A DNA stretch of 64,000 nt, from NCBI GenBank assembly GCA_034620365.1, contig JAQGEQ010000011.1, forward strand, positions 558,001 through 622,000, read 5' to 3'. The position numbers and the translations under genes were made by a program. Of this stretch, positions 29,561-62,700 are shown one piece after another; positions within the stretch are counted from its first letter, which is position 1; the number at the start of each line of letters is the position of its first letter. The notes under the pieces are model-generated. The model had not been told where the DNA came from, did no database searches, and saw only the letters and a program-made list of their open reading frames with translations. This stretch comes from Pegea sp. RAD2-039. Lineage: Eukaryota > Chordata > Thaliacea > Salpida > Salpidae.

Positions 29561-29743
29561 TCAACCAGCAATTGGCCTGACGTAGTTAGAAGGCAGCATC
29601 CCCGACAAACCTGATCTAACAACTGTTCCCAGCATCCAGCTACCATCATCAATACTCATCGCGTTTATGATGACGTCACCTGCATTGAAACTAACTTCAT
29701 CATGAGCTGTAGCCTCGTAATTGTACATTGCTCGATGTTTTAT
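29561..29743 (-). other. Nebulin last exon: C-terminal SH3 domain
   Basis: Encodes 60 residues: MYNYEATAHDEVSFNAGDVI, then IDDGSWMLGTV and GMLPSNYVRPIAG, which is the ALYDY...DE(L/V)SF...DDGW...G..P.NYV pattern of nebulin-family SH3 domains. The usual ALYDY is MYNYE and the second Trp of the WW pair is replaced (GSWMLG). The acceptor AG lies at 29744-29745 and the exon starts in phase 0. Confidence 0.93.
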
Positions 29744-35700: not shown

Positions 35701-38700
35701 TCTTCTTCAACTGCAATGTTCTTTTTATCTTACATCTGATGACAACTCTCGAACTTTTTCAAAATGTCTCAGCAAGTAATTGTCCTTCAATAGAATTGTA
35801 TTATACCCACGTGCTACTATTCCTTTTCCTTTAAGCTTATAAACATTCTGAAACCAATTAGTTTATGAGATTCATGTTGACAATAAAGAGTAGAATACAA
35901 CTTACATCACTAGGTAATAAAGCAACATCTTGGGCATGTTTTATAGCAATAGTATCTTCCGGAATTATCACTTCTTTTAGTTGTGACTTTGCTTCCTTTT
36001 GGTAAGAGATCTATATATGGAAGAAATTTACATGAAATGATGAAATATACATTTTCATGAAAAGCGCTTTCACTTACATTACTTGCAAGAATGTTTGCTT
36101 TGATTTGGGTTTTCATGAAAGGCGATTGATGAAGATTGATAGCTCCAAAACCTTTCTTCTTTTCATATTCGTTTTTATAGATATTCTAAAAAGCAATTTT
36201 ATATACTCAAGATTCTATGCAAAGCTTATTTGAATGTAATAGGTATTTGTGAGAAACATACATCACTTAAGATATGCATTGCGTAGATAGCTTGCTGTAA
36301 TCGTGGTTCATCAGTGATTAAGTCGTACTGGTCCATTACGTCTTTAGCTTTTTTTCGGTATCGTCTCTGTAAAATGTAAAAGCTCAAATTACAAAACTGA
36401 TTTTCATAAACTCAACAAATTGTAATGAGTCACGTACGTCACTATAGAGGACTTTGGTTGACCGATAAAGAGCTCGTAGAGGTGTATCGGTGACGTATGG
36501 ACTGTGACGCAAGTCGTCTAAGTGCTCTTTAATGTACGCAATCTACCAAGAGTGTATATTGAGAGCAAAATGTGAAGATTTAAGATTAATTATAGTTCAA
36601 TCTATAGGATTACAAGTACTTACATCACCAATTGTTCGGTGCAATTCACTTGCAATCTGATACTGATTAGTATCTGTCAGCTTAAATTCAATTTTATGGC
36701 GTTCTTGTAAAGCTTCATGGCTGTATTTATTCTTTGATTGATTCCACATTGTTTTACTAGCTGCATCATATCTACAAGCAACAAATACATTAAAATTTTA
36801 ATGAAGAAGTCAAAAAGCGGCTGTGAATAAACTTACTCGTCGGTTAAATCAAAGGGAAAGTAAACCATATCTCGGAGCCGATTGTACTCTTCCTTATACT
36901 TGTTTATGGAACATAAGTCAGTTACTTTAATTGAATTTTTCACATCGTTACGCTCGTCTGCTGTTAGTCGTTGGTATCCACGAGTTTTTGTACGAATTTC
37001 TAACCCAGGAGCTTTGTACTTAACCTATAAAGGAATCTCTTATTAGCAATGTGTATTTAAAAAGTTTAACAAGTAATCTGACAATTACAAGCTTCATTAA
37101 ACTTTCTTGCTTAAGATTTCAGTAAAACAAAAATAAAGTGAAATATAATAAACTCACATCACTAGCTTGATCAACTGCTTTCTTAGCCTGAATGATTGGT
37201 GGTGCATCAGGAACGACATGATAATCATGCATTTCACTATCAGCTTTGGCCTTGTACGCTTTCTATATGACATAAGACAGATGTTAGAAAAGTTTGTGAA
37301 AATATCAATTTAACATTTGTACATTTGTTAGCTAAGGGACCGGTAAACATTTTTAAGTTTGAAATGATCCGCAGATAATGTTTCTATTTAATTAACTCAC
37401 TTGGTTTACAAGTTTCTTCATCTTCTTGTGATGAACAAATATTGGAATATTTTCATGATAATCCATACCAAAACCGACAATAAATTTCTTAAAGTCAACT
37501 TTGTAAACATTCTAAAAATGAATGATCGATAAACATTAGAGAATAGAAATATGATGCACAAAAAGAAAATAGATCTTACATCACTTGCAATGTAGTCAGC
37601 ATAAATCGCTCGTTGTATATCTGGTATGTCAATAGTCAAATTGTATTTATTCATAATATCCCAAGCAGCCTCTTTGTATACATTCTGCTCATTTTAAAAA
37701 CTGTTAAATCTTTTTCTCTATAAATACGTTATCAACAAACATACACTACTAATACGAATCTGAACATCCTTGATGTGATCATTAAAAGTGTCTTCAGCCA
37801 GTACAGTGAAGCCAGTAGCTCTCCATTCCTGGGCAGCTTTCTTATGTTTGTACTATTAAATTGAACATGATGAATATTAGTGTAAAGCATCTTTAAAGTG
37901 TAACTCACAATACTGAGAAGATCATCTAATTTCCTATTTATCAGATACTCCTCTATTTGGTTGTATTGATACTCTACCAGGTTCTTATTATTTTGATATT
38001 CCCGCTCATAGTTTGACTATGTTATATAAAATGTGAAAAATATTTGTAAGTTTGTTTCTTGTAAGCTTACTTTGCTTAAAACAGTCTTTGACGGAGTTTT
38101 GCTTTCATATTCTTGAGTGAAGTTATAAGGGAAGTAAACCATGTCTTTTGTATCGTCATATTCTGATCGGTAATGTTTCTACAAAAGTTTAGCATTACAA
38201 TTTGAAAAGAATACTTTGTTTTGGGTCCATGACACTAAGTTGATGTTACAAGTATTACCTTGCTGAACTGATGATTGAGTTTTTGCATTCTCATATACTC
38301 AGGTATATCTTGGAAGCCACATCTTTTATACCCTTTGCACTCTGTTTGGATCTTCTTTCCGTCTAGAGTATATTTGATCTAGATACAAACAACAAATGTT
38401 TGTTGAAAGTCTTGACTATAGCTGGTATAAATTACCTGGCTAGAAAGATCATAGACATCAACTGCATGCTTGATATTTCGTGCATTGAAGTCGTAGTTGA
38501 TATCGCTTAATGAGCCCAAGGCTTCTTTTACATAACGAATCTAAACAAAAAACTGATTAGTAATTGAAATACTTATTATTTTATTAATTATATCGTTAAA
38601 TAGTTTGTTTATTTAATCAACAGCGAGCTGAGTTTATGTTAGAATTGTAATGCCAACCATGCTAGATAGTTTATTTGCTTTGATTGGTTGCTGGATTGCT

Positions 38701-41700
38701 TGAGATTTCTGGAAATTTTTAGCACCCTTACCAACTTCGTTTTCCTTATAACTTTTCTGGTACAAAATCTAAAATGTATTCAATTATTGAGAAAATTGAT
38801 AAGAGAATTTCGAAGTTATACCAGTGAAGCGATATTAGTAGCTCGTATAGCAGTAGTTATCTGTGGCATGTCGATTGTCAGATTATATTTTCCAAGTATA
38901 TCACGAGCTCTTTTCTTATAAGAGTTCTGAAATTGATGTAAATAGGTAAACTGACATCAAAAGGATTTGAAAGTATCTTACTAAGCTGAAAAGAGGTTGA
39001 ACAAGATCAATGTTGTGAGCTTCTCGGTAATCGAGCACCTTAGTGTACTCTCCACTGCACTTTTCATTTTCATACTCTTGCCGATATTGCTTCTGTAAAA
39101 GTAAAAATGACATTTGACTAGAACTTCAAACTTAAATGGCTTAAGACATGAGCACTTACAGCACTTTTAATGGGTTCTAAAGCCTTCAGTTGTTGATAAC
39201 CTGTAGTTGTAGTCAAAGGAAAGTTACCCTGTCCTTTTAGGTTCTCGTTATACCATCTATGATATTCATCCTAAGACAAATGTTATTTTGTGATAGGTAT
39301 GAAAATATAGAGAAATATTTAAAAATATTTTTTGAATTATATAATCAAGTATACTTACATCTTTACAAATATCATAAGTTTCAGTAAAAGCGATGTACTC
39401 TGGTGTAAAGTTGTATGGAAAATAAACCAAGCCTAACTGATTGTTATAATCTTCTTTATACTTAATCTATAAATAGAAAATATCGATGTCCAACTACTTG
39501 TAATCTAAACTAAGTTGTTTACTTGATCAACAATAGCAGTGGATTTCATGTCACGTTTTACTACTGGATGTTCGAGACTATTCAAAGTATAATATCCTTT
39601 TAGATTAGCATCCTTCATTCCTTCTTTCTTGTATATATTCTAAAATTACAGTAATTGATCAATTGTATGATAAAATATTTCAAAACTTATTTTAATCTAA
39701 GAGTTAAAGTTGAAATGTACCTTGCTGATGATTTTATCTATCTTCTGAGGATGAACAATTGATGGCATATCTTCAGGAATTGTATACTCGCTCAAGTTTT
39801 CTTTTCCATCTTTTTCATAAATGTTCTAAACAAAAGTATAAATAAACATTTTATTTGAAGTGCTTTAATCCCAAAATCTTGCAGCAGCATTGATATTGAT
39901 TATAATCAAAAGCTTACTATAAATATAAACATCTCAAACACGATGTGATTGTATATACTATAAGTGATATTTTAATTACCTTGCTGAACAATTTGTCAAA
40001 CTTGATTGAGTGCTTATGTTCCGGGAATGTATCAAGTTGGCTCCTTAACACCTTTCCACGAACATTTTCTTCAAAATCTTTTGTGTAGAGATAATCAGAG
40101 CTCAACTGTTTTACATAAAATTGAATTAATCGAACTGCACGTAAATCGAACGAACATAGCAGTAAATACTACTTACTAAATATACATTTTACATTTATAC
40201 TAGTAGCAACTCAGTTATTTAAATGATAATTACCTTGCTAGCATGCAAGGCATGAGCTACTCGTCGCTCGTTTGCATCTAAGTTGTATTTATCCAGCATT
40301 TTCTTTGCTTGATCCTTATAAAAGTATAAACTAAGAAGAGGTTGGACAGCTTTGATATTTTCCATGCTAAAGCTGTCATCAACTGATGTAAAAGAGCTTT
40401 TTGCTGCCTCCAGACTATACTTGTGCTGTAAAAGATTTTATGATTATTCAAAGCTAACTTTCAATGATAATGTGTTTATAAATTTATGATTTGATATCAT
40501 TTTAGAAGCAGTTTAATAAATCTTACATCTCTCAATTTTTCCAAATCTCTGCTAATTTCATAAACAGTCGTATCTGTGACTTTGAAGTCATTTTTATCCT
40601 TTTCGCTCTCATAATCAAGTTTGTAACTTGGCTACAAAAAATCTTAATCAATTTAAGCCCTTCAAGGGGGTTTTATCATTTTAACTTACTCCTGTCACTA
40701 ATTTGCTTGCTTTCAAAGCAACTTCATAACCTTCAGTTAGATGAACAGGAAAGTATACAGTTCCGACTTCATCCAAATATTCTTGTTTATATTTTTTCTA
40801 AAATTGAAAAAAAATCAGGATTAGATATATAACTACTAGCAAGAAACAGCTGAAAAATATCATCATTTAGCTTTAGTTATTATCAGATACTTACTTCTGA
40901 AGTTAGTTCATTAGCATGGATTGCCTTTTTAATCCAAGGTAGTTCGTGGCTGGCTAGTTTATGATAACCTTGGAATCTAGAAGCTGTCTTTTTCCCATCT
41001 TCTTTATAAATAATCTACAAACATGGAAAGTAGTAGAAAAGAACCTACATACAAAAGTCCATATCTTACTTCACTTGCAAGTTTAGTTGAATTCTTTGCT
41101 CTCAACATATCGACTGAATCACGGGGTATAGTGCACACATGTAGCCTGTCTTTATCATCTTGCACATAAACAATCTTTAAAACAAATTGATCAGGAGTTA
41201 TGAGCTTTAATTCAAAATTGCTATCGACATAAAAAGAAATTGAACTAGTTTACCTGACTGAGATTCTTACTATTTTCTTTAGCTTTTATATAATTCGGAT
41301 AGTATTTTATACCACTAGCACTAATACCCTTTCCCCGATCTTCAACTAGATGTTGATGATGGTAAATATTATCAGATGCAAGTGGCTGAGCATGTATGGC
41401 ATGTGCTATCTGTATGAGATCCGCACTAATATTATATTTTTCAAGACTCTTTTTAGCTGCATCAGTGTAGATTTTCTGTAATTTCAAAGTTAAATTTGAT
41501 GGTTGAATTAAACATCATCTAATGTTTTATTAGAATTTACCTTGCTAAAAAGATTCTTCACTGACTGTAAATGTACATCACTTTTTGAATCAGTTGTAGA
41601 GTATATATCTTGTAAGCTGTTTAATCCTTCTTTTCGATATTTTTTCTAGAAGTAAAAAAGTAAACAAAAAAAGATTATTGTATCAATAATTAAATTGAAA

Positions 41701-44700
41701 ATACTCAGATAAGAAGCATACCTCTTCAAGAGTTGCTAGTTGTTGATCTTTTTCATATTTCTGAGTAGATACGACGTTGAACAAGTTTTGTTGCTTCTCA
41801 TTTTCATATTCAGCCGTATATTTATCCTGGTAAAAATTGTTGTTTATCATTTTTATTAAAAATTTTAAAGCAAAATAATTAAAAATCAATCAACTGACTG
41901 AAGCAGTGATACTGTGTAGCTTAGAAGAAATATCATATTCATCTGTTAGGTGATATGGAAAGTATACCACCTCCTTGTCGGTTTGGTACTGTTCACGGTA
42001 TTTTTTCTAAAGGTAAAATAAGTTTAACAATTTTCTACAAAAAAAAGAAGCAACAAGTTTCACCTCTGATAAAATGTCATAAAGATGATTAGATCTAATT
42101 ACAATAGGATGGTGAGAGCTATCAAGCTTCTGGTATCCTTTGTAAAGTTCAAGAACTTCACTTAAAGGTTTCTTATATTTGATCTGTCACAACAAATTCA
42201 TCATCATCTTAATGAATCATCATATTTACTCATAATTATATCAACTCTTATCAATTTTAAATTTGCAAAAGTCCTTACATCGCTGGCGATATTAGTCGCA
42301 TTTTTAACTCGAATAATTTCTGGAATATCTGCTGAAAGTTTGAAATTCAAACGGGCATCTTTGGACTCCTTAGTATAGACAAGCTAAGAAAATAATAGAA
42401 ACAATAAGAGTAATAATCAAATTAGATGGGTAACTTCAAGGACTCGTCACTTACTTGACTGAAGATCTTAGCACAACGACGTGCTCTAGCATTTTGTGGG
42501 TAAGATTGGTCATTTGTATCACTTGGAGCTTTTCCTAACACATCACGTTTAAACTCTTCAGTGTATAATTCTTTATCAGCTAACTTTTGGGCAATAATAG
42601 CTTGTGACACAGATTTCGAGTCTGTAAATATTTGTTTAGGAAAGAACTGATTGTTATTCCAGGTTCTTACTAGCATCTAAGTTGTAGTTTCCTAATACTT
42701 CTTTGGCTACTTTACCATACTGCTTTTTACTCAACAATGGAGCAATCAAACGTGAGATCTGCATTTCAGCTGTGTCATCAATCGGTATGTTATGTCCTTT
42801 ACTTGCTTCATAGTATTCATGATAATTTTTCTATAAAAATATATATTTGACATCTTTAATGACTTTATTTCAAAGTAAGATAAAAAGCTTACATCAAACA
42901 AAACTTGACGAGCTGGAAGACCAGCTAGATATTGTTCAGTTTTGTTGATTTGATATTCATGTTTATCTTTTTCTGACAAATGCTCTTTCTTGTAGTCCAC
43001 CTGTTTATTTTTTTAAAATTAAATATAAACTTTCAAAGATTATTTAAATTTACGTCGCTAAGGTTATGACCAACTGCATTGGCAGCTTCATAAACACGAG
43101 TTAGATGATATGGAAAATAAATCATCGATTTTTCATTCTCCCATTCTTCTTTATACACTTTCTGTAATAAATGATCAAGTTAAAAAACTGTTCGTCAAAA
43201 CTTATCTGTTCGTAATTTCACTTACTCCTGGATATATTTCGATTGACTTCTTGGTTTGAGTAACAGCGGGATGGTATCTGCTGTCCATTTTTTGGAAACC
43301 ATGACAATTAGCATTTATTTTTTTTCCTTCTTTTTGGTAAACAATCTAATACATAAAAGAGAAATTAAAAGAATTGATGGTTGATCAGGAATACAACATA
43401 ATCGAGTTTGAAAGATTTACTTACATCGCTAGCCAACAAAGTACTTTTTTTAGCTTGAATAACTTGAGGAATATCAGCGGACAACGTGTAATCATCTCTC
43501 TTGTCTTTTGCTTGTTGTTCATAAGATTTCTGCGGAGAAGAAGAATAGTTTTAAGCTTGACAAAATAAAAACTTTTGTTTGTTCTAAACCTTGCTGGCCA
43601 TCAATGTGTTCTTTTTCACTCTTGCATTATCAGGATAAGCAATAGTGATATCATCAGGTGCTTTTCCAACTACTTCATTAAAGTAATCTTCTAAATAGGG
43701 ACGCTTTTCTGATATTTGCTGAGACTTCAGGTCTTGCATAATTCCCAATGTACCTGGGTTTGAAAGATGCATTTTTACAATCAAATGTCAAAATCAGTTC
43801 TGAATTTCAGCTTTGTTAAAATGTACAACAGCAAACTAACCAATATCTAAATTGTACTTTTGCAATACAGCCTTAGCATCTGCTGAATAAGCTTTATCAC
43901 TTAAAAGCGGAGCTATCAAGTTTGAAATTATCATCTCTGATGTCTCTTCAATTGGAGTCCATTCAGATTTGTTAGCTAAGTGTTCTTTTACATATTTTAT
44001 CTACGAATAAAAAACATATTTAGTTTTAACTACTTTTAAATGTATTAGTTTACAAATGAGATAAAATTACAAATATTCAACTAACATCATTAACAATCTC
44101 GTCCAAGCTTTTGTCTCCTTTGTATTTATCAGTTTCTGTATAAACAAAACAGTTTTTATCCTTCTCCATTTCAGCCTCTTCAGTATATTTGCTCTAAAAC
44201 AAATTATTTGATGTTTAACTTAATATTTTATTTATTTTTGAAGCTCTTACATCTGCAGTTAAATTAGCTACTTTCGTCGAAACTTCATATTCAGCTGTTA
44301 AGTGAACTGGATAATACACCATATCCTTTTCCTTTTCCCATTCGTTCTTGTAGTGGTTCTAAGAAAACAAATTTAAATGAGCTATCTTAACAAACTAAAC
44401 CAGATGTCAATGAGTAAAGATATTTACTTGAGATGACAATTGAGCTACTTTATTTGCTTGTTTAACCAACGGATGTTCCTGAGGAGTAAGTTTTTGAAAC
44501 GCTTGACACGTTTCGTTAATTTCTTTTCCTTTCTTTTTATATTGAATCTGAAAATAAATGATAAAATTAAAATTTTGTTCATAAAAATCATTTGCATTTT
44601 TCTTAATCATAGAAGAAAGAGAGTTCTTATAAAGAAAGTTCTTATAAATGTTTTAGTTACATATTTTCTACTTACATCACTAGCATTAATTGTAGCTCTC

Positions 44701-47700
44701 TTTGCAAGATCGAATGCTGGTGCTTCTACCGGCATTGTTACATCTGATAATACTTCCTTTGCTTCTTTGACATATGGGATCTAGAAAAATATATAAATAG
44801 AAAAATAAATATTCCTTATGAAATAATTTTTTCTTACATTGCTTGATAAGTTGCTCATCTTCTTGTGATGTTTATGCTCTGGATAAGCAATTGCAACATC
44901 AGAGGGAGCTTTACCGACTTGCTCTTCATTGTATTCAGCTTTGTATTCGTTCTTAGACGCCAAATGTTGTGTATCAACAGCGTGAGAAATCTCTTGACCG
45001 TCTGATGAACGATTAATTAAAAAATGAAATCAGTGACAAACGAAAAACTATAAAATTGAAATTAGAAAAATTAAAAAATTTATCCACCTGATTTAAGATG
45101 AATATTAGGTCGTTCTAATTTAGCATCCTCTTCATATATCGATTTGCTTATTATTGGAGTAATCTTCTTAGAAATTATCATTTCAGGTGTCTCATCTGTG
45201 CCAATCATTTTGCCCTTTTCAAGATTAAAATTTTCTTTGTATTTTTGCTGAAATCACAAAGTATTTTGATAAGAATTTATTAAGTTACAAAAAGCAGCTT
45301 TATGACTTTGTATAATTTTCATGACATGCAAATTTCTTCAGTTTCAAAAATAAACAGTTTTTTAAAGAGCTATATTTTTGAATTAAAGTATGCATAGATA
45401 TTAAAGCAAAACAAGAAATTACATCTGAGAAGTTCTTGTTGCTTTCTTGCATGACAGCATAACCTTCCGTATCAGTCACCAGATATTCGATAGCAGCTTT
45501 TGTATCGTCATAATCTTGTTTGTAGTTCACCTTTAAACAAATTTATTTGTTCCCAAATAATTTAATTGAAACATTTAGTAAGCTTACATCTAATTGGCTG
45601 TTTGCTTTATTGATGTCATGTTGATGTGTTAAGTTGTAAGGGAAATATACTTGGGACTTTTCCGTTTCCCATTCATCTTTGTAAGCTTTCTATAAATTCA
45701 TTATATTTTTTACTATGAGTGCTCACTAATTGGTTTTTGTTTAAGTGACAATATTAGTAACTTAGTTGATTGTTCTGAACTTTAAGTACCTGACTGTAAA
45801 TATCATTTGCTTTACGAGCTTGCTTCACAGCTGGATGGTTAATTGGCTCAATATTTTGGAACCCACGGTACTTGTCGTTGGTTTCCTTATTTAGCTTTGT
45901 ATACTCGATCTGAATAAAACATATTCGTTAATGTAGTTTCTCATTGGTAAAATACAAATTTTGTTTTTCCTACAAAATAAAATATTGTAAATTTATTGTA
46001 AAGTTAATCCAGACATAAATATTAATAAAACAAACATCACTAGATTGGATATTGGACTTTTTGGCTGTTAAGTAAGCTGGCGTATCAACTGGCAAGTCAA
46101 TTTCGGATCGGCTTTGCTTTGCATCTTTAACATACTCCAACTAAAAATGTAAATTAAAAATTAGCAAGAATATATATTAAAATATAACTTTTTTGTGCGT
46201 AAAAGGTAGACTTTCATTGAATACAAGTTATTAAGGTACAACTTAAAAAACATTTTTATTTACATTGCTTGATAAGTTGCTCATCTTCTTGTGATGTTTA
46301 TGCTCTGGATAAGCAATTGCAACATTAGAGGGAGCTTTACCGACTTGCTCTTCATTGTATTCAGCTTTGTATTCGTTCTTAGACGCCAAATGTTGTGTAT
46401 CAACAGCGTGAGAAATCTCTTGAACGTCTGATGAAAATGATGTTTTAAACGCGAGAATGTTTAGTGAGATCGATTACCTGTGGTAAGTTGGATCTTTGGA
46501 AGTTGTTCCTTAGCTTTTTCTTCGTATGCACTTTTGCTAATGACTGGCTGAAGTTTTTTCGAAATCACCATCTCTGGTAGTTCGTCCACACTAATCATCT
46601 GCCCTTTTTGTTTGTTGTATTCTCCGCGATAATTTTTCTTTATTGTAAAAGGTAAAAACAAATTACACCAAATGATACCCAAAAAGTGTAAAAATTCTTA
46701 TTTACAAGCTAAGTACTGAATTTTTTGTTTGAAAATCAAGCTTCGTACCTCCGCTGTGACATCATCAACTTCTTTAATCACTGTATATCCCTCTGTATCA
46801 GTGACAAGGAAGTTGATATTTTGTTTTTCTGCTTCATATTCCTTGTTATAATTATCCTATCAAAAGCAATCTTGTCAATTATCGGTTTAAAATACAAAAT
46901 TGATATCTTCTTACATCATGTTGACGATTAAAAGCTTTAATTTCATATTCACTAGTCAAGTGGTAAGGATAATAAACAAATGATTTGTCGTTTTCCCATT
47001 CTACGGTGTAAGCCTTCTAGAAAAATATAAATAATTTTGAATTAGAATTGAACAAACTATTTGTATCAAGATGAAACCTTATTATTCAATGCATTTGCTT
47101 TAGCAGCTTGTAAAACAACTGGATGCTTTTTGGTTTCTAATGTTTGGAATCCACGATACTTTTGTACATTTTCTTTGTGTTCTTTTTGGTACTCAATCTA
47201 CAAAATAGTTTAAATCTTTATTTGGATTATATGTTAGCCAGTGATGATATCTACGTCGCTTCTGATAAGTCCTGCATGCTTTGCTAGTATAAATTCAGGT
47301 GCATCCACAGGTAACTGGTTACACTCTAGCAGTTTTTTAGCAACACGAACGTACACAGGCTGAAATATTTCATAATTTAATAAGTTGTCTTTAATTTCAA
47401 TATCAGTTTAGTAAAACCTTATTTGCCAACAAAGTCATCTTCTTGTGATGTTTATGCTCTGGATAAGCAATTGCAACATCAGAAGGAGCTTTACCGACTT
47501 GCTCCTCATTGTATTCAGCTTTGTATTCGTTCTTAGACGCCAAATGTTGTGTATCAACAGCGTGAGAAATCTCTTGAACGTCTGATAAACATTAACCTCA
47601 CATTATTGAGAAAATATCACAATGCTACGGTGAAACTGGCTAATCTAATTGCAGCTATAATTTTTCTTTAATTTAATCTTTAATTTTTAAATATGTTTAA

Positions 47701-50700
47701 ATATACACACTGTTAGTTTTTTGTATTTACCGGTAGAGAAGTGTATGTCTGGTTGGGTTTCTTTTGCTTTCTCACAGTAAAGCTTTTTACTGATTATAGG
47801 TTTCAATTTTTTAGAAATAATCATTTCGCTTGTTTCATCTGTTCCAATCATCTTTCCTTTAGCTTCTTTAAACTCTTTCTTATAGTTTATCTGAAACCAC
47901 AAAACGTAAATTTCAAATTGATAAAAGTTTATCTAATTAAGGATCTGTTTCTCACATCTCCAGCAACAGCTTCAAGATCAGCATCGAGTTGATACTTCTC
48001 TGTTTTAGTGACGTCATACTTGTTCTTTGCTTTTGTAGCTTCATGATCTTGCTTATACTCTTCCTAAATACCACAATGGCAAAATTGAAAACTTGATCTT
48101 GATGATTACTTTGAGATACTTACTTCTATTTTCTGATTAACAGCATTGATCTCATACTCTTCAGTAAAGTTGTATGGAAAGTAAACGTAGTTTTTATCTT
48201 GTAACCACTGTTCCTTGTATACTCTCTACAAACATAAAGAGATTTAGAACAAATTTCTCTTTCAGATAACTTGTAAAATTAGTTGACTAACATCAGATAG
48301 AATCTTTTTCATTTCTTCAGAACGCAGAACAACCGGGTGATGTTGAGAGGATAAAGTTTGATATCCTCTGCACTTGCTTTTAACTTCATCGCCCTCTTTT
48401 TTGTAGGCAATCTTGTAGAAATTATTTATGTTATCAACAGCTTCAATTTGCACAACAATTTCTTACATCGCTTGCCAATATTGTGGCGTTTTTAACTCGA
48501 ACCATATTAGGAGTATTCACTGGAATCGTGAACTTTTGTCTCGCCGCGATACCTTCTTTAGTGTATATGAGCTGACGAAAGAGACATTTTAATAAATTAG
48601 ATGGCAATTGAAATTTCGGGGTAGATAAAAACTATCACCAATTAAGATAAATTTTCCGTAACTTATTTAGAAAAATGAAATCATTGAAATTTGATAGATT
48701 AAATTTTGCATAATGAAAAATAAAAACTGATCATTAAATGATATACCTGACTGAGTATCTTTGCACAGTTCTTAGCTCTAGCATTTTCAGGATATGATTT
48801 ATTACTAGCATCACTTGGAGCTTTACCGTATACATCACGGTGGAAGTCAGATGTATATAATTCTTTGTCAGTTAGTTTTTGTGCGATCATTGATTGAGCT
48901 ATTACTTGTGTCGCTAAAAAAGTCGTAATGTTACACAACTACTAAATAAACTAAGAAATTAATTTTGTAATATTTAGTTTTTTGTATATATGCTTAAAAT
49001 GTTCTTTTAAGAACTTACAAGCATCTAGGTTATACTCAGACAACATTCGATCAGCGGCATCTCCATATGTTTTCCGACTTAGTAATGGACCAATCAGTTT
49101 GGAAATAATCATTTCAGTCGTTTCTTCTATTGGATGGTATTTACCGATTTCAGCAACATGTAGTTTTTGATAATTTCTCTACAAGAGTTATTATGTTGTG
49201 AGATTGCACCGTTATAGCCAATAAAGTTAGTAAACGATTGTAAAAACGACCAGTTTATGAGTAAATTCAATATGAAAATGGTATTCTCTAAACTTACATC
49301 AAACAAAACATCTCTTGCTGCTTGTCCAGCTTTAAAATTATCAGTTTCGTTTATTAGATAGTGGTTCTTCATTTTTGTTTTATTATGATCCATTTGATAA
49401 AGACTCTGAAATGATACAAGCTTGTAGCTAATATATAATTTTTAAAAGTAAACCAGAAGCTTATAATAATCATCTTAGACTTACATCACTCAAATTGATA
49501 GCAGTTTGATAATCACTATCATAACGTGGTGTCAAATGATAAGGATAGTAGACATTAACTTTTTCATCTTGCCAAGATTTCTTGTAAATATTCTATTAAA
49601 TTAAAAACGTTTATTAATCAGTTTGATCTAACAAATTGTTTCGGATAAAAAAATAATTCAAATATAAAACGATTTTATGCTAACAAATTTACATCTGATA
49701 TTTGTTGGTCTGCTTTTACAGCTTGTTTGATAGCAGGATTATGCGATGACAACAACTGCTGATAACCATGGCATTTGTCATTAATTTCTTTACCTTCCTT
49801 CTTGTATTGAATCTAAAATTTATTTTAAAACTATTAATTGCTTGGCTTCCAAAGAAACTAATAAAATTTATACAGATGTATTTAGAGTTTTAGAAAACAA
49901 CTTGAAGTGTTTAGATGATCTTACCTCACTAGCGTTCTTAGTATTTTGTTTTGCTCTTTTATTTTCAGGAATATCAACTGGAAGTGAATAATCACCACGG
50001 CTTTTTTCAGCATCTTCTTTGTAGATATTCTATAAAGTAATTGAAGTTTTTGTAAAATATTAAGTTAATAGAAAAGAATATTTATTGAGTCAGTGAAAAA
50101 CTCTTACTTTGCTGGCAAGTATAGTGGCTTTTTTAGCTAAATCATTTTCTGGATAAGAAATTGAAATATCCTGAGGTGCTTGGCCTTTAACATTCATCAA
50201 ATAATCTTCAAAGTAAGGAAATTTGGAAGAAAGCTTTTGAGAGCTTACAGCATGTTCAATGCCCTTTGTTCCTACAGAAAAGGTTAATTTAGAAAAAGAT
50301 CTATTGAAGAAAGTAAAAACTACGTTGGTTACAAATTGTAAAAATAATCTAGCATTTGAAACTTTAAAGAATAAAAAAATATCATCAATTTATGAAAGTT
50401 TAAATGATTTGCTCTTTATTGAGATCTCTTTACTTTTGAGTTTTTATAAAATGAGCTGAAAATTTATTAAGAGTATGAATATTTTCAATTAGGCAAACCT
50501 GTATCCAAATTGTACTTTTGCATTATTGATTTTGCATCATATGAATAAGCCTTTTGACTTAGTAATGGCGCAATCAGTTTAGAAATTGTCATTTCAGCAT
50601 TTTCTTCAACAGGATGTAGCATACCACGCTTAGCAAGATATTCTCTTACATAGTTATTCTGGAAAAATCACAAGAAGTAGATTTTTAATCTTCACATACG

Positions 50701-53700
50701 TGCAAGCTTACATCACCAACAATTCCTTCTAAAGATCGATCTACTTTATACTTATCAGTATCCGTATACAAGTAGTGATTTTTTATCTTTCCGCAGTCAA
50801 CATCTTTAGTGTACGAATTCTAAAATAATATTTCAATATTAAACTGATAATTTGCTGAGATATGTTGAACTTACCTCGCTAAGATAATAAGCAGCTTCTT
50901 GTGCTGCTTCATATCCAGGGGTAAAGTTAACTGGGTAATAAATTTTATCTTTGTCTTTTTCCCAATCTTCAATATACAGTTTCTGTAAAAATTAATTATG
51001 TAAAAAAAGTCAATTGGACAAATATAAAAGTTTTTACTTTTGAGGTTAGCTGTGAAGCTTTAAGTCCTTGCTTAACAACAGGATGGTTCTTTGATTCCAA
51101 AGTTTGAAATCCCCTACATTTGTCGTTGATTTCTTTACCTTTCTTCTTATAAATGATCTAAAAAATTCACAACAATTCATTAGCATCAAAGTAATATTTC
51201 TTTCAAACATAAATGATACAAACATCACTGAGTTTTTTCATTGCATCTTTAGCAACTGTAAACTGTGGTGCATCAAGAGATAGTTTGTTTTGTTCTAGAA
51301 TAGCTTTAGCTTCTTTGATGTATTCCGGCTGAAATTGAAATAATATAAAACGTTAAAGAGAAAATTTAAAAAAATATGTAACATTTGGAATTGAAAAAGT
51401 GTTTAGTTTCATTGGTAGCATTAATAAAACCAACTTTGTTCGCAATAAGAGTCATCAACTTATGGAAATCATGTTCTGGGTAAGCTACTGCAACGTTTGC
51501 TGGAGCCTTGCCAACTAATTCGTTTTGATAGTCACTCTTATATTCATTCTTTGAAGCTAACGGTTGTATTTCTAAGGCATGAGAAATTTCTTGTCCATCT
51601 AAAATCAAAATGAATGTCAAGTAAATAAAATGTTTGTTTTTTAGATGATCAAATAATTAATTTTACTCTTCCAAAATTTGAATATATTTTTAATAGACTC
51701 ACCACTATTGATATGTACATCAGGTAAAATATGTTTTGATTCAGCTTCATACATGTTTTTACTCGTGAAAGGAAGAATCTTTTTAGCCAATAAAGTTTCA
51801 GGTGTCTCTTCCACACTTATTTTATTTCCTTTCTTTTCAATGAACTCTTTTCGGTAATTTTGCTGTTGAATCAGTAAGTTTTTGTGTTAAAGGTTTGTGA
51901 GAATACTCGAAAATTGTTGTAAGAAATTAGGAATCCTAAAGATATCGAGTCATAAAGATAACAATTATATTAGACTATAATTTTCAATCCAAGTTACCTC
52001 AGCAACAATTTTATCGACGTCACTCATTTGTTTATATCTTGGGGTTGATGTGAAAAGGTATTTGTTTTTATCTTTTGTATCTTCATGATCTTTAGTATAA
52101 TCATCCTAAAAATTGAAGAAATTTTTTGATTGATCTTAATGAAATTGAATTTAGCCAGAAAATTGACTAAACTCAAATTTATAACTTTTTGAAAATAGTT
52201 TCTTTACTACTTTATAAGAAAAGGATCTTACCTGCATTTGTGAAATTGCAGCTTTAGCATAATAATCTCCAGTAATGTGATAAGGAAAGTAGATAATCTC
52301 TTTATCATGCTGCCAGTTTCCTTTGTACGCTTTCTGAATTTTAAGCAAAAGTTTAAACCACAGTGAAGTAATTGAACGCTCAACGATGCATCAATCACTA
52401 AAAGTGAATAAAACTTACCTCATCATACAAATCATTTGCCTTTTTAGCTTGCTTTACCGAAGGATGGTGTTTAGTATCCATAGTTTGGAACCCACGATAT
52501 TTGTCGGAAACATCTTTATCTTTTTTCGTGTACTCAATCTAAGAAGTTCAAAAATAATTTGAATCTATTGATACTTTTCATCTAGTACTAAACTAATTTA
52601 TCTCGTTTTAAAATTCTTTAGAATATCCATTATTTTCTCATTATGAAAAATTTAGTTTGTTAAATATAGTTTAAACGTTAAACTGGTTTTAATCGTTATA
52701 TGATTCAATTGGTAAAAATGAAGCTTATTTTTCAGTATCAAACTAGCTGCTAATAGTAGTTTTGATATTTAAACAACTCACATCACTAGCAATCTTGTAA
52801 GCATCCTTGGCAACTTTAAAGGATGGTGCATCAGCTGTTAGCTGGTTGGTTTGCAGTTCATCTTTTGCTTCTTTGACATATTTATTCTGAACATATTTCA
52901 AGTAATTAAAGAGCTTACACCTCAAAAAATATTTGTTATATTTAAAAGATTTAACAGCTTTCAAAGTTATATTTATAAAACACAAATCAGTTTTTATGTC
53001 GAAACCTGATTAGCAATTTCCATCATCTTCTTGTGATGTTTATGCTCTGGATAAGCAATTGCAACATCAGAGGGAGCTTTACCGACTTGCTCCTCATTGT
53101 ATTCAGCTTTGTATTCGTTCTTAGACGCCAAATGTTGTGTATCAACAGCGTGAGAAATTTCTTGGCCATCTATCATAAGATATTTGAATAAAAAAAGATA
53201 GCTTGAGTAATATTCATAACAATGAATGTCACACAAACCTGGTCCTAATTTGTTAAATTGACGACTTGCTTTTGCTTTGTTTTCATAAATGCTTTTACTT
53301 TGAATTGGTTTTAACTCTTGTGATATGGCCATTTCAGGAGTGACCTCTACGCTTCGCTTTTGACCTTTAGCTTTGTAAAATGCTTCTTTGTAGAATTTCT
53401 ACGAAATGTTTTGACCGATATTTCAGAAATTTGTATAATAGCAAGTTATTTTGTGCTTTATGCATTTAGAATAATTTTTATATGCGCAGAACTAATTATG
53501 TAAGATATTAAATCAAGAGAGAATCTTACATCAGCTGTTTTCTTCTCAACATCTTGCAAAACATCGTATGCTGGTGTATCGGTCATCAAATATTTGTTCT
53601 TCGCCTTTTCATTTTCAAATTCTTTTTTATAGTCTTCCTGTTAAGTCGGAATTTTTCAAAATTAATTATCCAATGGCTTCGTAAATTTTACTTACATCAA

Positions 53701-56700
53701 TTTGATGGATAATTACTTGAGCTTCATACTCTGGTGTGATATGATAAGGATAGTAAATAACTTCTTTATCATGTTCCCACTGATCCTTGTATGCTCTCTG
53801 AATACAATATTTGGTTTATTTACTACCAGAAACATGGTTGACATATATTGGTTAAGAACTACTTTTATTTCTAAATTGAAACGACTACAAACGATTTTGT
53901 TTTACCGCATTGTTAATGTCATTATTTCTTTCCACTTTTTTGACGTCAGGATGTTCTCTAGGATCCATAGTTTGAAACCCTCTAAATTTATCTCCGATTT
54001 TTTTGTTATCTTTCACATATTCAAGCTGTAAGATCAAACATTTAGATTTATTTAAAATCTTTATTATTAGATTGATGTGTTGGAAAAGTTATATTTTTTT
54101 GAAGTTAGCTTTTTAATTATGTTATCAAAAAGTGTTTTTTTTTTCTAAACATTACTTACATCACTTGCAAGCTTAGTGGCGTTTTTCACTCGTTTAAATT
54201 CAGGAGCTTCTGCATTTAGTTTGTTTGTTTGCAGAAGTTCTTTTGCATTATTAACGTATTCGTCCTGAAAATGATAAAATATTTTAAGAAATAAGAACAA
54301 AAATTTCAATTACCTTATTGATTAGTTTTGTCATTTTTCTGTGATGAGTATGCTCCGGATATGCAATAGCGACATCTGTTGGTGATTTACCAACTACTTG
54401 CTCAACGTAGTCAGATTTGTATTTATTTTTTGAAGCCAAAGGTTGTTTGTCGAGTGCATTTGCAATTTCTTGGCCATCTAAATATAAAAAAAATTTCAAT
54501 ATTCAAACCAAAAAGTTTAGATTAGAAGTAGATATTTACTAGATGCATATTATAAAACTGTTTTTGTGAAGTCTTGCCTAAACTTACCTGCATTAACATG
54601 GACATCAGGTTGTTGCTCCATCGCTTTTTCCTTGTATAGCTTTTTGCTGATAATAGGCTTTAGATCTCTTGCAATTTGCATTTCCATAGTTTCATCAATA
54701 CCTATCAGCTTTCCTTTATTTTCAAGGAACTTTTTCTTATAGTAGATCTATATCAGTACAAAAAAGCACATTGAAAAAATGAAAAAAGTTTCATGTGACT
54801 TTTTAAATAATCAATTGATTTTTTCACTTTTTTTAAACAAAATTTTTAATTAACTTTTTAAAAACGTGATAATTTGATTTTAGATAAAATTAGCAAATAT
54901 TCACGTCATTGGTCGACTCGTTGATGCTTTTCAGCTGATCATAAGCTGGTGTAGCTGCCATATTAAATTTATTTTTTGACTTTTCCATATCATGTTCTTT
55001 TGTATAATCCTCCTTGAAAATAAATTTGCAATTACTTATGAAATATAATTTCGAATATATTCAAAGCTTTCAATCCACTTTGGAAAATTAACATTTGTCT
55101 TTCATTAATTTGAAGCAATAACGCTACTTACAAAAATATATTTCATTATCTTATTTCATTTCAACTATTACTTATTAGCTTACATCAAGTCTTTGTATGT
55201 TGTAGTTAACTTCATATTCAGGAGTTATATGATATGGAAAGTAGATAAAGCTCTTGTCGTTATTCCACTGGTCTTTATATGCTTTCTGCGAAATGTTTGG
55301 AAGTGTTAACAAAGCTTCGACTGTTTATGTTGTCGTATAGGGAATTAATTTAATGTTCAAAAAATTACTAGACAAGTAAAAGTGATTAACTTGTCACCCA
55401 CCTCTGAAACTAATCCAGCAACTTCTGCAGCTTTTCTTAAAATTGGATTATCTTTGATTGCAATTGATTGGAATCCCTTTGAAGAGTGTTTGATGTCTTC
55501 CCCATCTTTTTTATAACTAATCTGAAGTTTGGTAATTTAAAAATAAAAAGAAACTAATTTATACAGGATAAACTTACATCACTCGCTAACTGGGTAGCTT
55601 TCTTAGCAATTTGTATAGCTGGCATATCTACAGGAAGTGTAAATTTCACTCTAGAAGCAGCACCTTGCTTTGTGTACTCCAACTATCAATGAAGTTTAAT
55701 AAGAAAACTACAAAACAACTAAAAAACTGAAAAAAGATGTTTACAAACCTGACTAAGTATTTTAGCACATCTCTTAACCCGATCATTTTCAGGAAAATCT
55801 TTATCTCCCTCTCTTCCTTTTCCTCGAACCTTATTTCTGAAATCCTCTGTGTAAGCTTCGTTATCGACTAGTTTCTGAGCATGAAGAGCTTGAGAGAGGG
55901 CAATTGCAGCTGTAAACAAAAGCAACTTACAATAGTTTTTATATTTTATCGTTAAGGTTCGTGTAAGGCATTCAATTGTAAATTTTCGGAAATTTGTCAA
56001 GATTTAATTATAAATGTTGTTGATTATATTTACATGCATCCAAATTATATTCCTCCAATTTGCGTTTAGCAGTTTCTCTATAAGCCTTCTTGCTAATCAA
56101 AGGTGAGATCAAACGAGATATCACCATCTCAGATGTTTCTGCAACTGGAATATTCTTTCCGAGATTTTTCATATGATCTGCTTGGTATGCAACCTAAAAA
56201 GGGTTTGATATCAAATTAACTTTGAAAGCAGTTGTAAAACAAACTCAATCTTACATCAGAAAGAACATCTTTGTTAGCTTGACCAATTTTATATAAATCA
56301 GTTTCGTGGTATTTGTAGTGATTTTTTGTTTTTGTATTTTCATTATCCTTTTTATATACATTCTGTTGAAAAACAAAATTATAGAAAGCTTTTTTATTAC
56401 TACCCTAAAATGATTTAATAATAAAATCAGCAATTAAATCAAAACTGTTTTTGATCAAAAGCATCATATCGTGCTGGATATTTACTATTCTACTATTAAA
56501 TCAGACTCACATTGCTGAGATTATCAGCAGCAATTTGGTTTGCCCAATAAGTTGCTGTGATATGTTCAGGATAACATAACATGGCTTTAGTATTCTCCCA
56601 GTCTTCCTTATAAAGTTTCTACGATCGACAAATACATAAATAGATTGTCAAATAATTGTTTAGTAGTTTAACTTAAAAGTTTGTTTAGCTAAAACTGTTC

Positions 56701-59700
56701 AAATGTTAATATTATCAAACAAAATAGTTAATTGACAAAATCTTATTTTCATGTATTTTTGTAAGTCTATCAAATCGTACTTGAGAAGCAAGTTTAGTTC
56801 CTTTAACTGCTTGCAAAACATCAGGATGAACTCTAGAATCCATAGTTTGATAAGCTCGGCAACTTTCTCGAATTTCTTTTCCTTTCTTTTTATACTCAAC
56901 CTAATACAGGATCAAAATAAATTTTATCAACAAATATTTTAGATTTATCTAATACGTACTTTGCTGATTTGTTCGGCGTTTTTCTTAGCAAGTTTATTTT
57001 CAGGTATATCTAAAGAAAGATTGTATTCTCCAAAATTATCCTTAGCTTGTTGTGAATATTTTTTCTGATAACAAATTTTGTTATTTAAAAGTATTTTTTC
57101 TTTCAAACGTGATAACTTGACAAACAAACCTTGCTTGTTAGATCTGTAGCATGCTTAACACGTTCATTTTCAGGAAAGGCGATAGCTGAATTATTTGGAG
57201 CTTTACCAACCATTTCATTTCTGTATTCGTCAATGTAGGGTCGATCATTATACAGCGTTTGTGAATAAATAGCTTGTTCTATTCCCTTTGTTCCTAGGAA
57301 CAAAATCTTAAGGTCATCTTAAGCAAATAAAATTAAATTTTATAACGCTAGTCTGATAATGAAATATCAAATATAAAAAATAAGTAAAATTTACCCACCT
57401 GTATCGAGGCTATACTTTTGCATCACATCTTTTGCACCAGCACTATAAGCCTTATTGCTAAGCAAAGGTGCTATAAGTTTTGAAATTGCCATCTCAAACG
57501 TCTCTTCAACTGGATGTAGTTTCTTGAAATTCTCTAAGTAGCTCTTATGATAATTGCGCTGTAACAAATCAAATTAAAGTAAATATATAAGTGAAGCAAA
57601 TGGTGAAAATCCAAACTACTTACATCTCCAACAACATCTTCAAGATGCTTATCTCCCTTGTAGCGATCTGTATCAGTATAGAGGTAATGATTCTTTATTC
57701 TATCTTCTATAGCATTTTGTTGGTATATTTTCTGCATCAAATTAAAGTAAATCAAACCTTGCATCTTTTATACTTGTTATCTACAGCTTCAGGATTTTAA
57801 ACTTACATCACTAGAGTACTGAGCAGCTTCTTGTGCTGCTTCATATCCAGGAGTAAAAATAACTGGGTAATAAATTTTGTCTTTGTCTTTTTCCCAATCT
57901 TCAATATACAGTTTCTGTAAAAATTAATTATGCAAAAAATGTCAATTAAACAAATATAAAAGTTTTTACTTTTGAGGTTAGCTGTGAAGCTTTAAGTCCT
58001 TGCTTAACAACAGGATGGTTCTTTGATTCCAACGTTTGAAATCCCCTACATTTGTCGTTGATTTCTTTACCTTTCTTCTTATAAACGATCTAAAAAATTC
58101 ACAACAATTCATTAGCATCAAAGTAATATTTCTTTCAAACATAAATGATACAAACATCACTGAGTTTTTTCATTGCATCTTTAGCAACTGTAAACTGTGG
58201 TGCATCAAGAGATAGCTTGTTTTGTTCTAGAATAGCTCTTGCTTCTTTGATGTATTCCGGCTGAAATTGAAAAAATTTTTGTTAAAATATTTATACTTTT
58301 TTGGTTAATATTTTCTGTGACATTGATCTATAATCGGCTAATCAGCCTTCTTTTATTTTGACTAGTTTAAATTACAAATCTCTTACATTTTTGATTAAGT
58401 AATATTTCACAACATTTTAATCTAGAAATTATCATGAGATCAAATTAAGACTTAGTAAGTTTTTGATTAACTTTTTGTAATCTTTAAAACTTTATTTAGT
58501 AATTAAAACATGTTTTATTCACAAACCTTTTTTAGCAAATATTGCATTATTTTGTGAAGATTATGTTCTGGGTAAGCTATTGCTACATCAGTTGGAGCTT
58601 TTCCCACTTGTTCTTTGTAACCAGTTTTGTACTCAATTAAAGAAATTAAATGTTGTTTGTCAATTGCATTAGCTAGCTGTTGACCATCTGTAAATAGTAT
58701 AAGGTTTATGTTTGAAATAAGTTAAATGTTTGCAAAAACAACTTAATTAAAAAATAGAGGTATTTTAATTACCGATTCCATAACTCTCTTTTGGCATAAT
58801 TTCTCGAGATTGGGACTCATATTGTTTTTTACTGTAAATAGGTTGTAGCTCTTTGGATAGAATCATCTCAGGAGTTTCTTCAGTACTTATTTTTTTGCCC
58901 AGGTTGTTGACATACTCTTCTTTGTACTTGTTCTGTAAAATTAATTTTGAAAATATGTATAATTCAAGCCTTAAGAAAGATATTTGAAAAAAAAAACAGA
59001 TAAACCATTTATTTAATTATGTTTTGATTTCAATAAACAAGATTGACTATCTTTAAATCTTACATTTGATGCTAAAGCATCGTTTATTTGAACTTGATCA
59101 TAATGTTTAGTTGATGTTATATCGTATCTATTCTTCGCTTTGTTTTCTTCAAAATCCTTTTTGTAATCTCCCTATAGATAGAAAATATGTTGATTTTATT
59201 TCATGATTTATTGAATTACTAACCTGTAGTAGCTGATTATTGGCGATTACTTCATACTCAGAAGTTATGTGATATGGATAGTAAACTATTTCTTTGTCAT
59301 GTTCCCAATTTTCTTTATAAGCTCTCTGCATAAAGTATTGAATAGTTTAACAAAAGGTGGAACAGAAATAACCTATTAGTAATAAGTATTCAATCTTTAG
59401 AATTTCTTACAAGATTTGCACTAGTAAAATATTAAGGTTTATTACATTATTTGAAGCAAATAATTTGTTCAGTGATTACAAATAACTCTTGAAAGAAGGA
59501 AATAGTCAAAAGGATTAGAGTTTTTAACATTATTTTTTGCTCACCTCATTGTTTAGTTCGTTTGCTTTGGAAGCTTGTACCACTGCAGGATGTTTGCGTG
59601 CATCCATTGTTTGGAATCCACGGTATTTATCTACTATGTTTCGGCTATCTTTTTTGTAAATGATCTAAAATTTAAAAAATAAATATTTAAAAACAGTGAG

Positions 59701-62700
59701 AGATGCAGATTACACTTTGTCATATTAAGATATTTTTGAAAAACTAACAAATTGTTGTCATTCTCTAAAACGTTTATTATAAAAAAGTTTATTGATTTAC
59801 ATCGCTCAAGATATTGTCAGCATTTTTAGCTCGCTTAAAATCAGGTGAATCCACTGGTAGCTGATTAACCTCCAATAATTTCTTGGCATCTTTTTTGTAA
59901 CCATTCTATAAAAGTATTTCAATAAATGATCGAAAAAAACTTTTTATCTAAATATTCACAGAGTCAGCAATCTCCATCATCTTCTTGTGATGTTTATGCT
60001 CTGGATAAGCAATTGCAACATCAGAAGGAGCTTTACCGACTTGCTCTTCATTGTATTCAGCTTTGTATTCGTTCTTAGACGCCAATGACTGAGATTCAAT
60101 TGCATGTGAAATTTCTTGGCCATCTGTTTCAGTAAACATTAAGTTATAACTAAAATGTACAAAGATGACAATTAGATATTAATTTGCTTGTATAAGAACA
60201 ATAAAAGCAGCTCTTCAATAACTGTTTAATCTTTACTTTCCTAAACTATTAGATCAGATTGAATAGAGTTTTGTTAACTAAACGTTCTTGTTTAGTTTTC
60301 AAAACATCGTTTAATTTTTGATATACAGCATTGTAATGTAACCCACCAGTTGTAACATGAACATTAGGTTGAATTTCTTTTGCAGATTTTTGATATTTGT
60401 TTTGACTAATAATTGGTTTCAATTGGTTTGAAAGAACCATCTCTAAAGTCTCATCAGTTCCCAACATTTTTCCTCTATTATCATTGTACTCTGCTTTGTA
60501 GTTTTGCTGCAAAACAGATACCAATACTCTAAGCAATAGATTTTAAAGGTTGTCACTGATATTTTAGAGTCTTATAACATAAGTATTGTGAATACGGTAG
60601 AAAATTACTTCAATCATCATTTGAAAAACAAAAAATGTTAAAAGTATTATATCGTAATTATCTTTAATCATTTTATTTGTATTAGTGAAAACTAAATTTC
60701 TGATGATTATTTTCAAATTCATTTAAAACCAAAATTATCTAAGAAAATACATAAAATTGCAAACTTACATCACACTTAATTTTATCAATATCTTGATAGT
60801 GTTGATATATTGCCGTGCCAGTAACATCAAACTTGTTATTTGCTTTAGTTTCATCATATTCTTTAGTATAGTCCTCCTAATAAAAATGAAGTTCAATTAC
60901 ACGTTTAGATGATATGTTTTGCTAGCATAATGCAGCTACTCACATCAATATGTTGAATGTTTTGCTTCGCTTCGTATTCTGGAGTAATATGGTATGGATA
61001 ATAGACATAGTTTTTGTCGCTAAGCCATTCCTCTTTGTACTTTATCTATTTTCCAAAAAATATGGTTAAAAAAATGCCCGATAAATATTTTAATCTCAAA
61101 TACACTTTAATTTTAAAAGTTGAGTATTATCTATCACAATGTTTGTTTGAAAAACTCAATGATATTTACATCACTGATCAATTCATTTGCTTTTTGACCA
61201 CGAACAACATCAGGATGAACTCTCGAATCCATAGTTTGATATCCTCGGTGGTTAGCTACTGCTTCTTTTTTACCTTTGGTGTAGATAATCTGCAAAAGTA
61301 TTATTTCATGTTAGTTTGAAATTGCTTCAACAAATAATGATTGTAAGAAGAAAACAATTTACATCACTAGCATTCTTAGCAGCCTCTTTTGCTAAAACAA
61401 ATGTAGGAGCATCCACAGGAATATTTGTAGTTTCCATCATCTTCTTAGCTTCTTTTTGGTAACCATCCTGTAAATGACACCGGAAACTTAGCAACAATTC
61501 ATTTTACAAAAATAATTTCACCTTATTTGCTAATAAAGTCATCTTCTTGTGATGTTTATGCTCTGGATAAGCAATTGCAACATCAGAGGGAGCTTTACCG
61601 ACTTGCTCTTCATTGTATTCAGCTTTGTATTCGTTCTTAGACGCCAAATGTTGTGTATCAACAGCGTGAGAAATCTCTTGACCGTCTGATTTATGAAAAG
61701 TAAAAAGTTGTATGTGATATATCAATACTTTTTAACTTTTATGAACCTATAAAAAGATGATTTTTTGTCATTGCTTTCTTTGCTTGATCTTCATATGCCT
61801 TTTTATTTACGAATGGTTTGAGATCTCTAGCCAACGTCATTTCAGGTGTTTCATCTGTTCCCAACATACGACCTCTATTTTGCTCGAATTCATGTTTGTA
61901 GTTTTTCTACATATTTTTAAATAATCAAAAGAAAAAGATAACAAATATTGATCTAAAGATGATTTTAGTTCAATCATAAAATAAAGATTTAATTATAAAA
62001 ATTCAAATTAAAATTGGCTAAAAATAGTAATGTAAAATTACATCATTTGTTATTCTTTCAACATTTTGACTAAGTTGATAAGCTGGTGTATCTGTAACAT
62101 TGTATCTGTTCTTTGCTTTGGTTTCTTCATATTCACTTTTGTACTCTTCCTGTATTCAAACAAACATTAGAAAACTTTAAACAAAAGCTGAACGTTAAGT
62201 GCTTTAGTCCAAAATTACTAACTTAGAAAACCTAAATTAAAAATCACTTTGTAATAGATATTATAACTTTAATTTGCGCATAATTAACAGTATTTGTGTA
62301 AAACTAATTTATATTTCTGCTAAAAGTTTGTATGAAGTTATTTTCCTTAAACTCTAAACAGTAGATATAAATTTTTTTGACACTTTAATTGCAGAAAAAG
62401 AAATTAATGTTTTTTGAAAGACCTTACAAAAGTTTTTAAGATTTATTATTTTTCAAAGATTTCTATTTATTAATTAATTAATTAATGTCTCTTCAATAGT
62501 TAGACACTGCAAGCATAAAAAAGAAGACATACATCAACTCGCTGTAGATTAGCAAGAGTATCATACTCGTCTGTAAGAGTGTAAGGGAAACAGACAACAC
62601 TTTTACTAAGCTCATAATCTTCTTTGTAAGCTTTCTGTACAAACATGAAAAACAGATTTATTAGTCAAAAATTGTTATAATATTTTTGCAATTTTTTAAC

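Follow-up and report, generated by a model that had tools for sequence, protein, structure and literature searches.

The window analysed here is a stretch of 64,000 nucleotides, positions 558001-622000 of contig C13 (JAQGEQ010000011.1), in the assembly GCA_034620365.1 of Pegea sp. RAD2-039 (105.7 Mb, 387 contigs, referred to by C-numbers). A giant nebulin gene on the minus strand has its 3´ part, the Z-disc-side portion, in this window. In this part, seven-module super-repeats (SRs) follow one another in the type order D-D-C-B-A three times, which gives a period of five SRs or 35 modules. We consider it likely that an old block carrying a divergent C-B-A tract underwent two duplications while the D repeats were turned over. 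The order would then be a record of growth and not a working period.

Results

A five-super-repeat order repeated three times

Flanking sequences (C13:538001-558000 and C13:622001-802000) were added to the analysis. Protein-word counts show that the main stretch of repeats, on the minus strand, extends from about C13:666 kb to below 602 kb. Iterated exon profiles gave 284 module-exon matches, and 43 SRs (SR1-SR43) have a complete set of six exons. One SR consists of exons e1 to e6 (approximately 54, 35, 40, 34 or 36, 36 and 53 codons), encoding about 253 amino acids and seven modules. The translated length of SR1-SR41 is 249-255 amino acids, and the 250 exons of SR0-SR41 concatenate to 10,530 codons with not a single stop; e6 is irregular in SR42 and SR43. 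Introns have a median of 85 bases, and GC content is 36% in exons versus 23% in introns. As a side observation, the e3-e4 introns of all eight SRs from SR4 to SR11 are 0.6-1 kb long, compared with the 85-base median.

A preliminary description of this DNA had noticed a fixed cycle of peptide motifs among sixteen SRs. Exon modelling bears out both: sixteen SRs (SR27-SR42, with e6 of SR42 only partly modelled) are located inside the window, and in the direction of the gene their types run D-D-C-B-A three times (SR28-32, SR33-37 and SR38-42). The type letters C, D1 and D2 were assigned in this analysis. Coordinates without a contig number refer to the window.

54588..61685, minus strand: unit 1, SR28 (D), SR29 (D), SR30 (C), SR31 (B), SR32 (A); from exon models and trees
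47731..54477, minus strand: unit 2, SR33 (D), SR34 (D), SR35 (C), SR36 (B), SR37 (A); from exon models and trees
41427..47581, minus strand: unit 3, SR38 (D), SR39 (D), SR40 (C), SR41 (B), SR42 (A); from exon models and trees, e6 of SR42 incomplete

The units are 6.2-7.1 kb long. On the minus strand, A repeats carry QAIIAQKL (42604), QSMIAQKL (48896) and QALHAQKL (55892), while B repeats carry GTLGI (43754) or GTKGI (50272 and 57294). Exact DGQEI occurs at 45002, 51599, 53170, 54478, 60124 and 61686, and the remaining three of the nine D or C copies read DVQEI (SR38, SR39) or DGQQL (SR30). The motif positions given earlier match the low ends of the modelled exons, and the spacing of like motifs, 6.3-7.2 kb, agrees as well.

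The period is also evident from whole-repeat comparisons. The matrices behind identity by distance, array-likeness, nearest relatives and pairwise tests contain a mis-called e5 in three SRs; the incomplete e6 of SR42 lowers its values in all of these except the nearest-relative matrix. Distance tests cover complete SRs, leaving aside SR0 and SR44 onward. Over SR27-42 with all exons, mean amino acid identity at distances 1 to 10 is 0.41, 0.37, 0.35, 0.39, 0.49, 0.40, 0.36, 0.36, 0.38 and 0.44. In every one of the six exons taken singly, identity over distances 1-9 peaks at 5. Its value was reached by none of 5,000 shuffled orders with all exons and by 0-0.42% with single exons; under a stricter control, which lets any of the distances 1 to 8 reach it, the fractions were 0.02% and 0.1-3.1%. 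With e2-e6 of SR28-42 only, distance-5 identity is 0.477, and dropping the recently copied SR30/SR35 pair lowers it to 0.442; neither value was matched in 20,000 shuffles each.

Nearest relatives within SR28-42 point the same way for the A, B and C exons: 34.7 of 53 are found five or ten SRs away (random expectation 14%) and 5.3 of 53 next door (13%), the total being 53 rather than 54 because e6 of SR42 was omitted. For D exons the two numbers are 10.8 and 11.0 of 36. Exon e4 provides a length marker with a period of five in SR28-41, as it is 36 codons long in SR30, 31, 35, 36, 40 and 41 and 34 codons long in the remaining eight. A similar use of e5 length was abandoned, the short e5 of SR35, SR37 and SR40 looking like a mis-called donor; the DNA of SR37 and SR40 permits an e5 of 36 codons.

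Across units, identity in e2-e6 is 29-45% for A, 44-45% for B and 47-79% for C, the low A values resulting partly from the incomplete e6 of SR42 and the 79% from one C pair. SR30 and SR35 have 483 bp in common, introns included, at 95% identity.

Looking further upstream had been suggested as a check, and the cycle does not carry on there. In SR1-26, identity declines steadily with distance and shows no peak at distance 5. The pattern is local, comprising 15 of 43 SRs.

Grouping of repeats across units

The five groups tested in trees were the sets of SRs five apart, as predicted. The tree with all exons contained 31 of the 43 SRs and the tree without e1 contained 27, most near-identical upstream copies being omitted. 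In the whole-SR tree, SR32, SR37 and SR42 (A) group with support 99/93 (starred), SR31, SR36 and SR41 (B) with 100/100 (starred), and SR30, SR35 and SR40 (C) more moderately with 91/85 (unstarred). B is joined with C at 87/86. Without e1, support is 98/96 (starred) for B and 89/94 for C.

It had also been proposed that closest kinship between neighbouring SRs would speak against a third level. All six neighbour pairs tested, out of 14 in SR28-42, were rejected as sisters (p <= 0.00043); these six were picked after viewing the matrix and all lie among C, B and A. Among the D repeats, neighbours do come out closer.

Divergent tracts

Likeness to nine upstream SRs is lowest from about e4 of C to e3 of A in each unit, a tract of some 14 modules, and about 21 array-like modules separate one such tract from the next. 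The edges below are approximate, being taken from exon-match positions; the tracts were defined by per-exon likeness.

55401..57914, minus strand: divergent tract of unit 1, about C e4 to A e3, where resemblance to the upstream array is lowest
48291..50982, minus strand: divergent tract of unit 2, about C e4 to A e3
42063..44358, minus strand: divergent tract of unit 3, about C e4 to A e3

Some single D exons are equally low in array-likeness, for example e5 of SR39 and e6 of SR34.

Homogenisation of exon e1 and the upstream arrays

Exon e1 follows a history of its own. Among nine SRs chosen for their alike e1, which include young tandem copies whose introns are alike too, mean e1 DNA identity is 90% (82-100%), compared with 62% for the next e2, 64% for the previous e6, 54-55% for introns and 51% at the shuffled level. 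Between SR28 and SR40, e1 is 100% identical over 152 bp, and the match ends near the exon edges. SR40, a C-type repeat by its remaining exons, has a D-type e1. The high ends of the D-type e1 copies, SR40 included, lie at 45001, 46427, 47581, 53169, 60123 and 61685 on the minus strand, and near-identical copies continue upstream of the window. This pattern looks like gene conversion confined to approximately one exon, and offers a natural case in which to study such conversion. As evidence of block structure, e1 alone was rejected, since it is homogenised across positions.

SR1-SR26 lie upstream of the window (C13:622-666 kb). Protein identity is 97-100% among SR3-11, with SR12 at 84-86% to them, and 91-100% among SR15-21; the SR3-11 and SR15-21 arrays are alike in introns as well. 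Judging from these identities, SR3-12 and SR15-21 look like young tandem arrays.

The behaviour of e1 brings up the reading that no third level exists at all: neighbours would be the closest relatives and the e1 motif cycle a by-product of exon-wise gene conversion. It draws on the 82-100% identity of e1 in nine SRs whose flanking exons and introns are mostly not alike, and on the closeness of neighbours among D repeats. The distance-5 peak persists without e1, though, B and C group without it, which already refutes this reading for those two types, and every tested neighbour pair among C, B and A was rejected. We regard it as very improbable.

How the order may have arisen

Several results weigh against the duplication of an old block. 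Type A, when e1 is left out, is neither recovered nor rejected as a group (p 0.445). Both D groups (SR28, 33, 38 and SR29, 34, 39) are rejected with e1 (p 0.020 and 0.026) and without it (p 0.0036 and 0.015), and the neighbours SR38 and SR39 appear as sisters in the whole-SR tree (98/90, starred). D identity is 0.476 between neighbours versus 0.437 at the same position, other pairings giving 0.433-0.438. Branching orders conflict: A and B pair units 2 and 3 (96/76 and 89/79 in the whole-SR tree; for B weak without e1, 83/36), whereas C pairs units 1 and 2, through SR30 and SR35, which hold recently shared DNA. Exon e4 of SR42 has 36 codons, unlike its counterparts in SR32 and SR37. Autocorrelation of array-likeness is not sharp at 5 and 10 SRs, forming instead broad maxima at 5-6 and 10-11 (0.42, 0.39, 0.38, 0.51). 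BLAST matches between units are short, one to two exons (SR30/SR35 excepted), so that no block edges are visible. Finally, splice sites were assignable for all 284 module exons (282 GT and two GC donors), but they were predicted without transcripts, by a picker that permitted AG with GT or GC only.

Three of the five positions, then, act as predicted and two do not. Of the anticipated clustering of like with like, the grouping of A, B and C stands (C moderately, A only with e1), and that of both D positions falls. The same division applies to the proposed block duplication of five SRs: the type order, found three times, and the A, B and C groups speak for it, whereas the rejected D groups leave a clean five-SR duplication unsupported. 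Duplication of entire five-SR blocks is plausible.

Since D positions fail to group across units, the duplicated unit may be smaller than five SRs, and what recurs every 35 modules is the divergent tract of about 14 modules between array-like D repeats. The copied unit could have been only the C-B-A tract, two to three SRs, which ended up at three places inside a D-type array, with the spacing of five partly a coincidence. The lack of homology by position among D repeats, the greater closeness of D neighbours and the limited extent of the divergent tract (about C e4 to A e3) all fit. On the other hand, exactly two D SRs are present in both gaps (SR33-34 and SR38-39), which a single five-SR duplication explains more simply, and homogenisation of e1 in D repeats can wipe out a signal of position. 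We hold this smaller unit to be the less likely of the two, though it deserves serious consideration.

Under the preferred reading, an old block holding the divergent C-B-A tract would have been duplicated twice, presumably through unequal exchange, to yield D-D-C-B-A three times. The D SRs between the tracts may have been homogenised or turned over with the long upstream D-type array, as is seen in e1, and would for that reason keep no trace of the duplication. Upstream growth would be younger and mostly by single SRs. The 35-module order would document the growth of the ruler.

A different view is that selection keeps the 35-module period, a distinct binding surface recurring about 190 nm apart along the filament. 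The class differences, which survive deep divergence between units (A 29-45%, B 44-45%, C 47-79%), could be taken to favour it. There are, however, three units only, in one part of the SR region, SR1-26 have no such order, and old duplications by themselves yield the same pattern. Nothing found in this sequence analysis bears on a function for the period. That selection maintains it seems improbable to us. We give equally little credit to the idea that the C-B-A tract presents a surface of its own and labels the filament on the Z-disc side every 190 nm or so, the remaining ruler growing and shrinking freely.

Least credible of all is an assembly artefact. The near-identical upstream arrays could be miscounted. 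The gene region, however, contains no N, zero stops occur in 10,530 codons, and the divergence among the three units is too great for copies made by the assembly.

Identification of the gene as nebulin

Three spliced SRs were scanned with PF00880 (SR28, type D; SR41, type B; SR37, type A), and all three exceed the cut-off of 20.1 bits, with 30.6-53.5 bits. The signal of single exons is weak: one of five module pieces passes, and many exons stay below the cut-off in a genome scan. Among the matches listed, those over the cut-off fall either in the nebulin gene (C13:588-665 kb) or on C262. An alignment of eight of 42 translated SRs reveals seven invariant tyrosines (positions 20, 58, 93, 133, 167, 203 and 238), one per module and 34-40 residues apart, and G-K-x-P is invariant in one module. 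Searches of PDB with one SR and with a profile of the eight gave no match at E <= 10.

The coding region ends in an SH3 domain. Its four best matches in PDB, at 61-63 bits, are to LASP1, to nebulette and to two sequences of nebulin; the family that follows scores 44.8. A Ser-rich linker ahead of it was noticed by eye. On the grounds of repeats, super-repeats and SH3, the gene is filed as nebulin. By homology, the protein should extend alongside the thin filament of actin as it does in vertebrates, with one module per actin and one SR per tropomyosin-troponin repeat.

At its N-terminal end, nebulin is characterised by a Glu-rich stretch and by tropomodulin-binding modules. Acidic, Ser-rich open reading frames (ORFs) lie upstream of the first modules (C13:666340-668036) and contain KQGGGGSS twice plus one variant; these ORFs perhaps represent the N-terminus.

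Comparison with known nebulins and rulers

Published work is cited below by PMC number, from excerpts. Known nebulins had been described to us as having two levels of repetition, which overlooks the human NEB triplicate region: exons 82-105 consist of eight exons three times over, TRI-S1 to TRI-S6 corresponding to two SRs times three (PMC9109913, PMC7109182). A third level in nebulin is already known; unit size, copy age and SR count are what differ here. A tandem block of several SRs, present three times as in the human region, may exist here too: there are three cycles, and C, B and A group across them while the D positions do not. The human block has two SRs and 10 kb, its copies are highly similar and their number is variable, whereas the period here is five SRs and the copies are old, 29-49% identical (e2-e6 of A, B and C) with one pair at 79%. 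The 43 six-exon SRs compare with 22-29 in human (PMC7109182) and 21 in zebrafish (PMC11153343).

The general layout resembles that of vertebrate nebulin, with nebulin repeats, a central region of seven-module SRs, single modules plus a linker nearer the C-terminus, and a terminal SH3. WLKGIGW is described in each vertebrate nebulin SR (PMC7109182); here, unlike in vertebrates, no W..G.GW was found in the six frames of the window, a search blind to motifs that an intron interrupts. According to a 2012 paper, proteins with nebulin repeats, the LASP class aside, had until then been found only in vertebrates and amphioxus (PMC3305314). The titin A-band, with 7- and 11-domain super-repeat patterns (PMC9140763), is likewise a ruler of muscle built from nested repeats, but one of Ig and Fn domains on the thick filament.

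We found no description of a five-SR nebulin period in the open-licence papers, listings and excerpts searched. A Ciona nebulin was reportedly described by Nishikawa in 2019, and an amphioxus nebulin is said to have been reported by Hanashima in 2009. These are presumably the nearest described relatives.

The growth of this one ruler protein may be recorded twice over, in an old order of SR blocks nearer the Z-disc and in young arrays of single SRs further toward the N-terminus. Should the number of 43 SRs be right, the SR region alone would by simple arithmetic span about 1.66 um, at 38.5 nm per SR (PMC7109182). Thin-filament length in this animal would for that reason test the nebulin ruler idea outside vertebrates.

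Other features of the gene and the assembly

Outside the three units, the window contains the following parts of the gene. The number of single modules was counted by eye from ORFs, with exon edges unrefined.

61747..63236, minus strand: SR27, an additional D-type SR 5´ of unit 1, outside any cycle; from exon models and identity matrices
30265..41405, minus strand: C-terminal part, SR43 and SR44 (irregular) and then about 35 single nebulin modules; from exon profiles and ORFs
29564..29743, minus strand: C-terminal SH3 (IKHRAMYNYEA...NYVRPIAG), followed by the stop that ends the coding region; from ORF, PDB matches and Pfam SH3

A scan of the window with Rfam at gathering thresholds gave no matches, nor did a search of the assembly for COX1.

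Two findings elsewhere in the assembly bear on the host. At C14:74 kb, a GH6 exon (PF01341) passes narrowly, with 27.5 bits against a cut-off of 27. The neighbouring ORFs look membrane-spanning by eye, the stretch has 32% GC, and together they are perhaps the tunicate cellulose synthase fusion gene. GH6 was present in all eight tunicates and none of 35 other animals surveyed (PMC6523144, excerpt). On C235, about 22 kb separates two homeoboxes of posterior type. The first matches in PDB a two-stretch engrailed chain (77.4 bits), HOXB13 (69-75), abdominal-B (68.9), HOXA13 (67.6) and HOX9 (65), and the second the same engrailed chain, then HOX9 (60-63 bits) and HOX13 (55-59). In Corella, Hox12 and Hox13 are on one scaffold (PMC7337526, excerpt). 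Taken together, the Hox and GH6 sequences suggest that the host is most likely a tunicate.

A second gene, short and with a small number of nebulin repeats, is found at C262:1794 kb, along with an acidic ORF of great length; it is perhaps LASP-like. Lying 5´ of the nebulin gene, at C13:672-678 kb, are ORFs that by eye resemble C-type lectin domains. Two more places rich in repeated protein words are present on the same strand at C13:690-694 and 702-710 kb.

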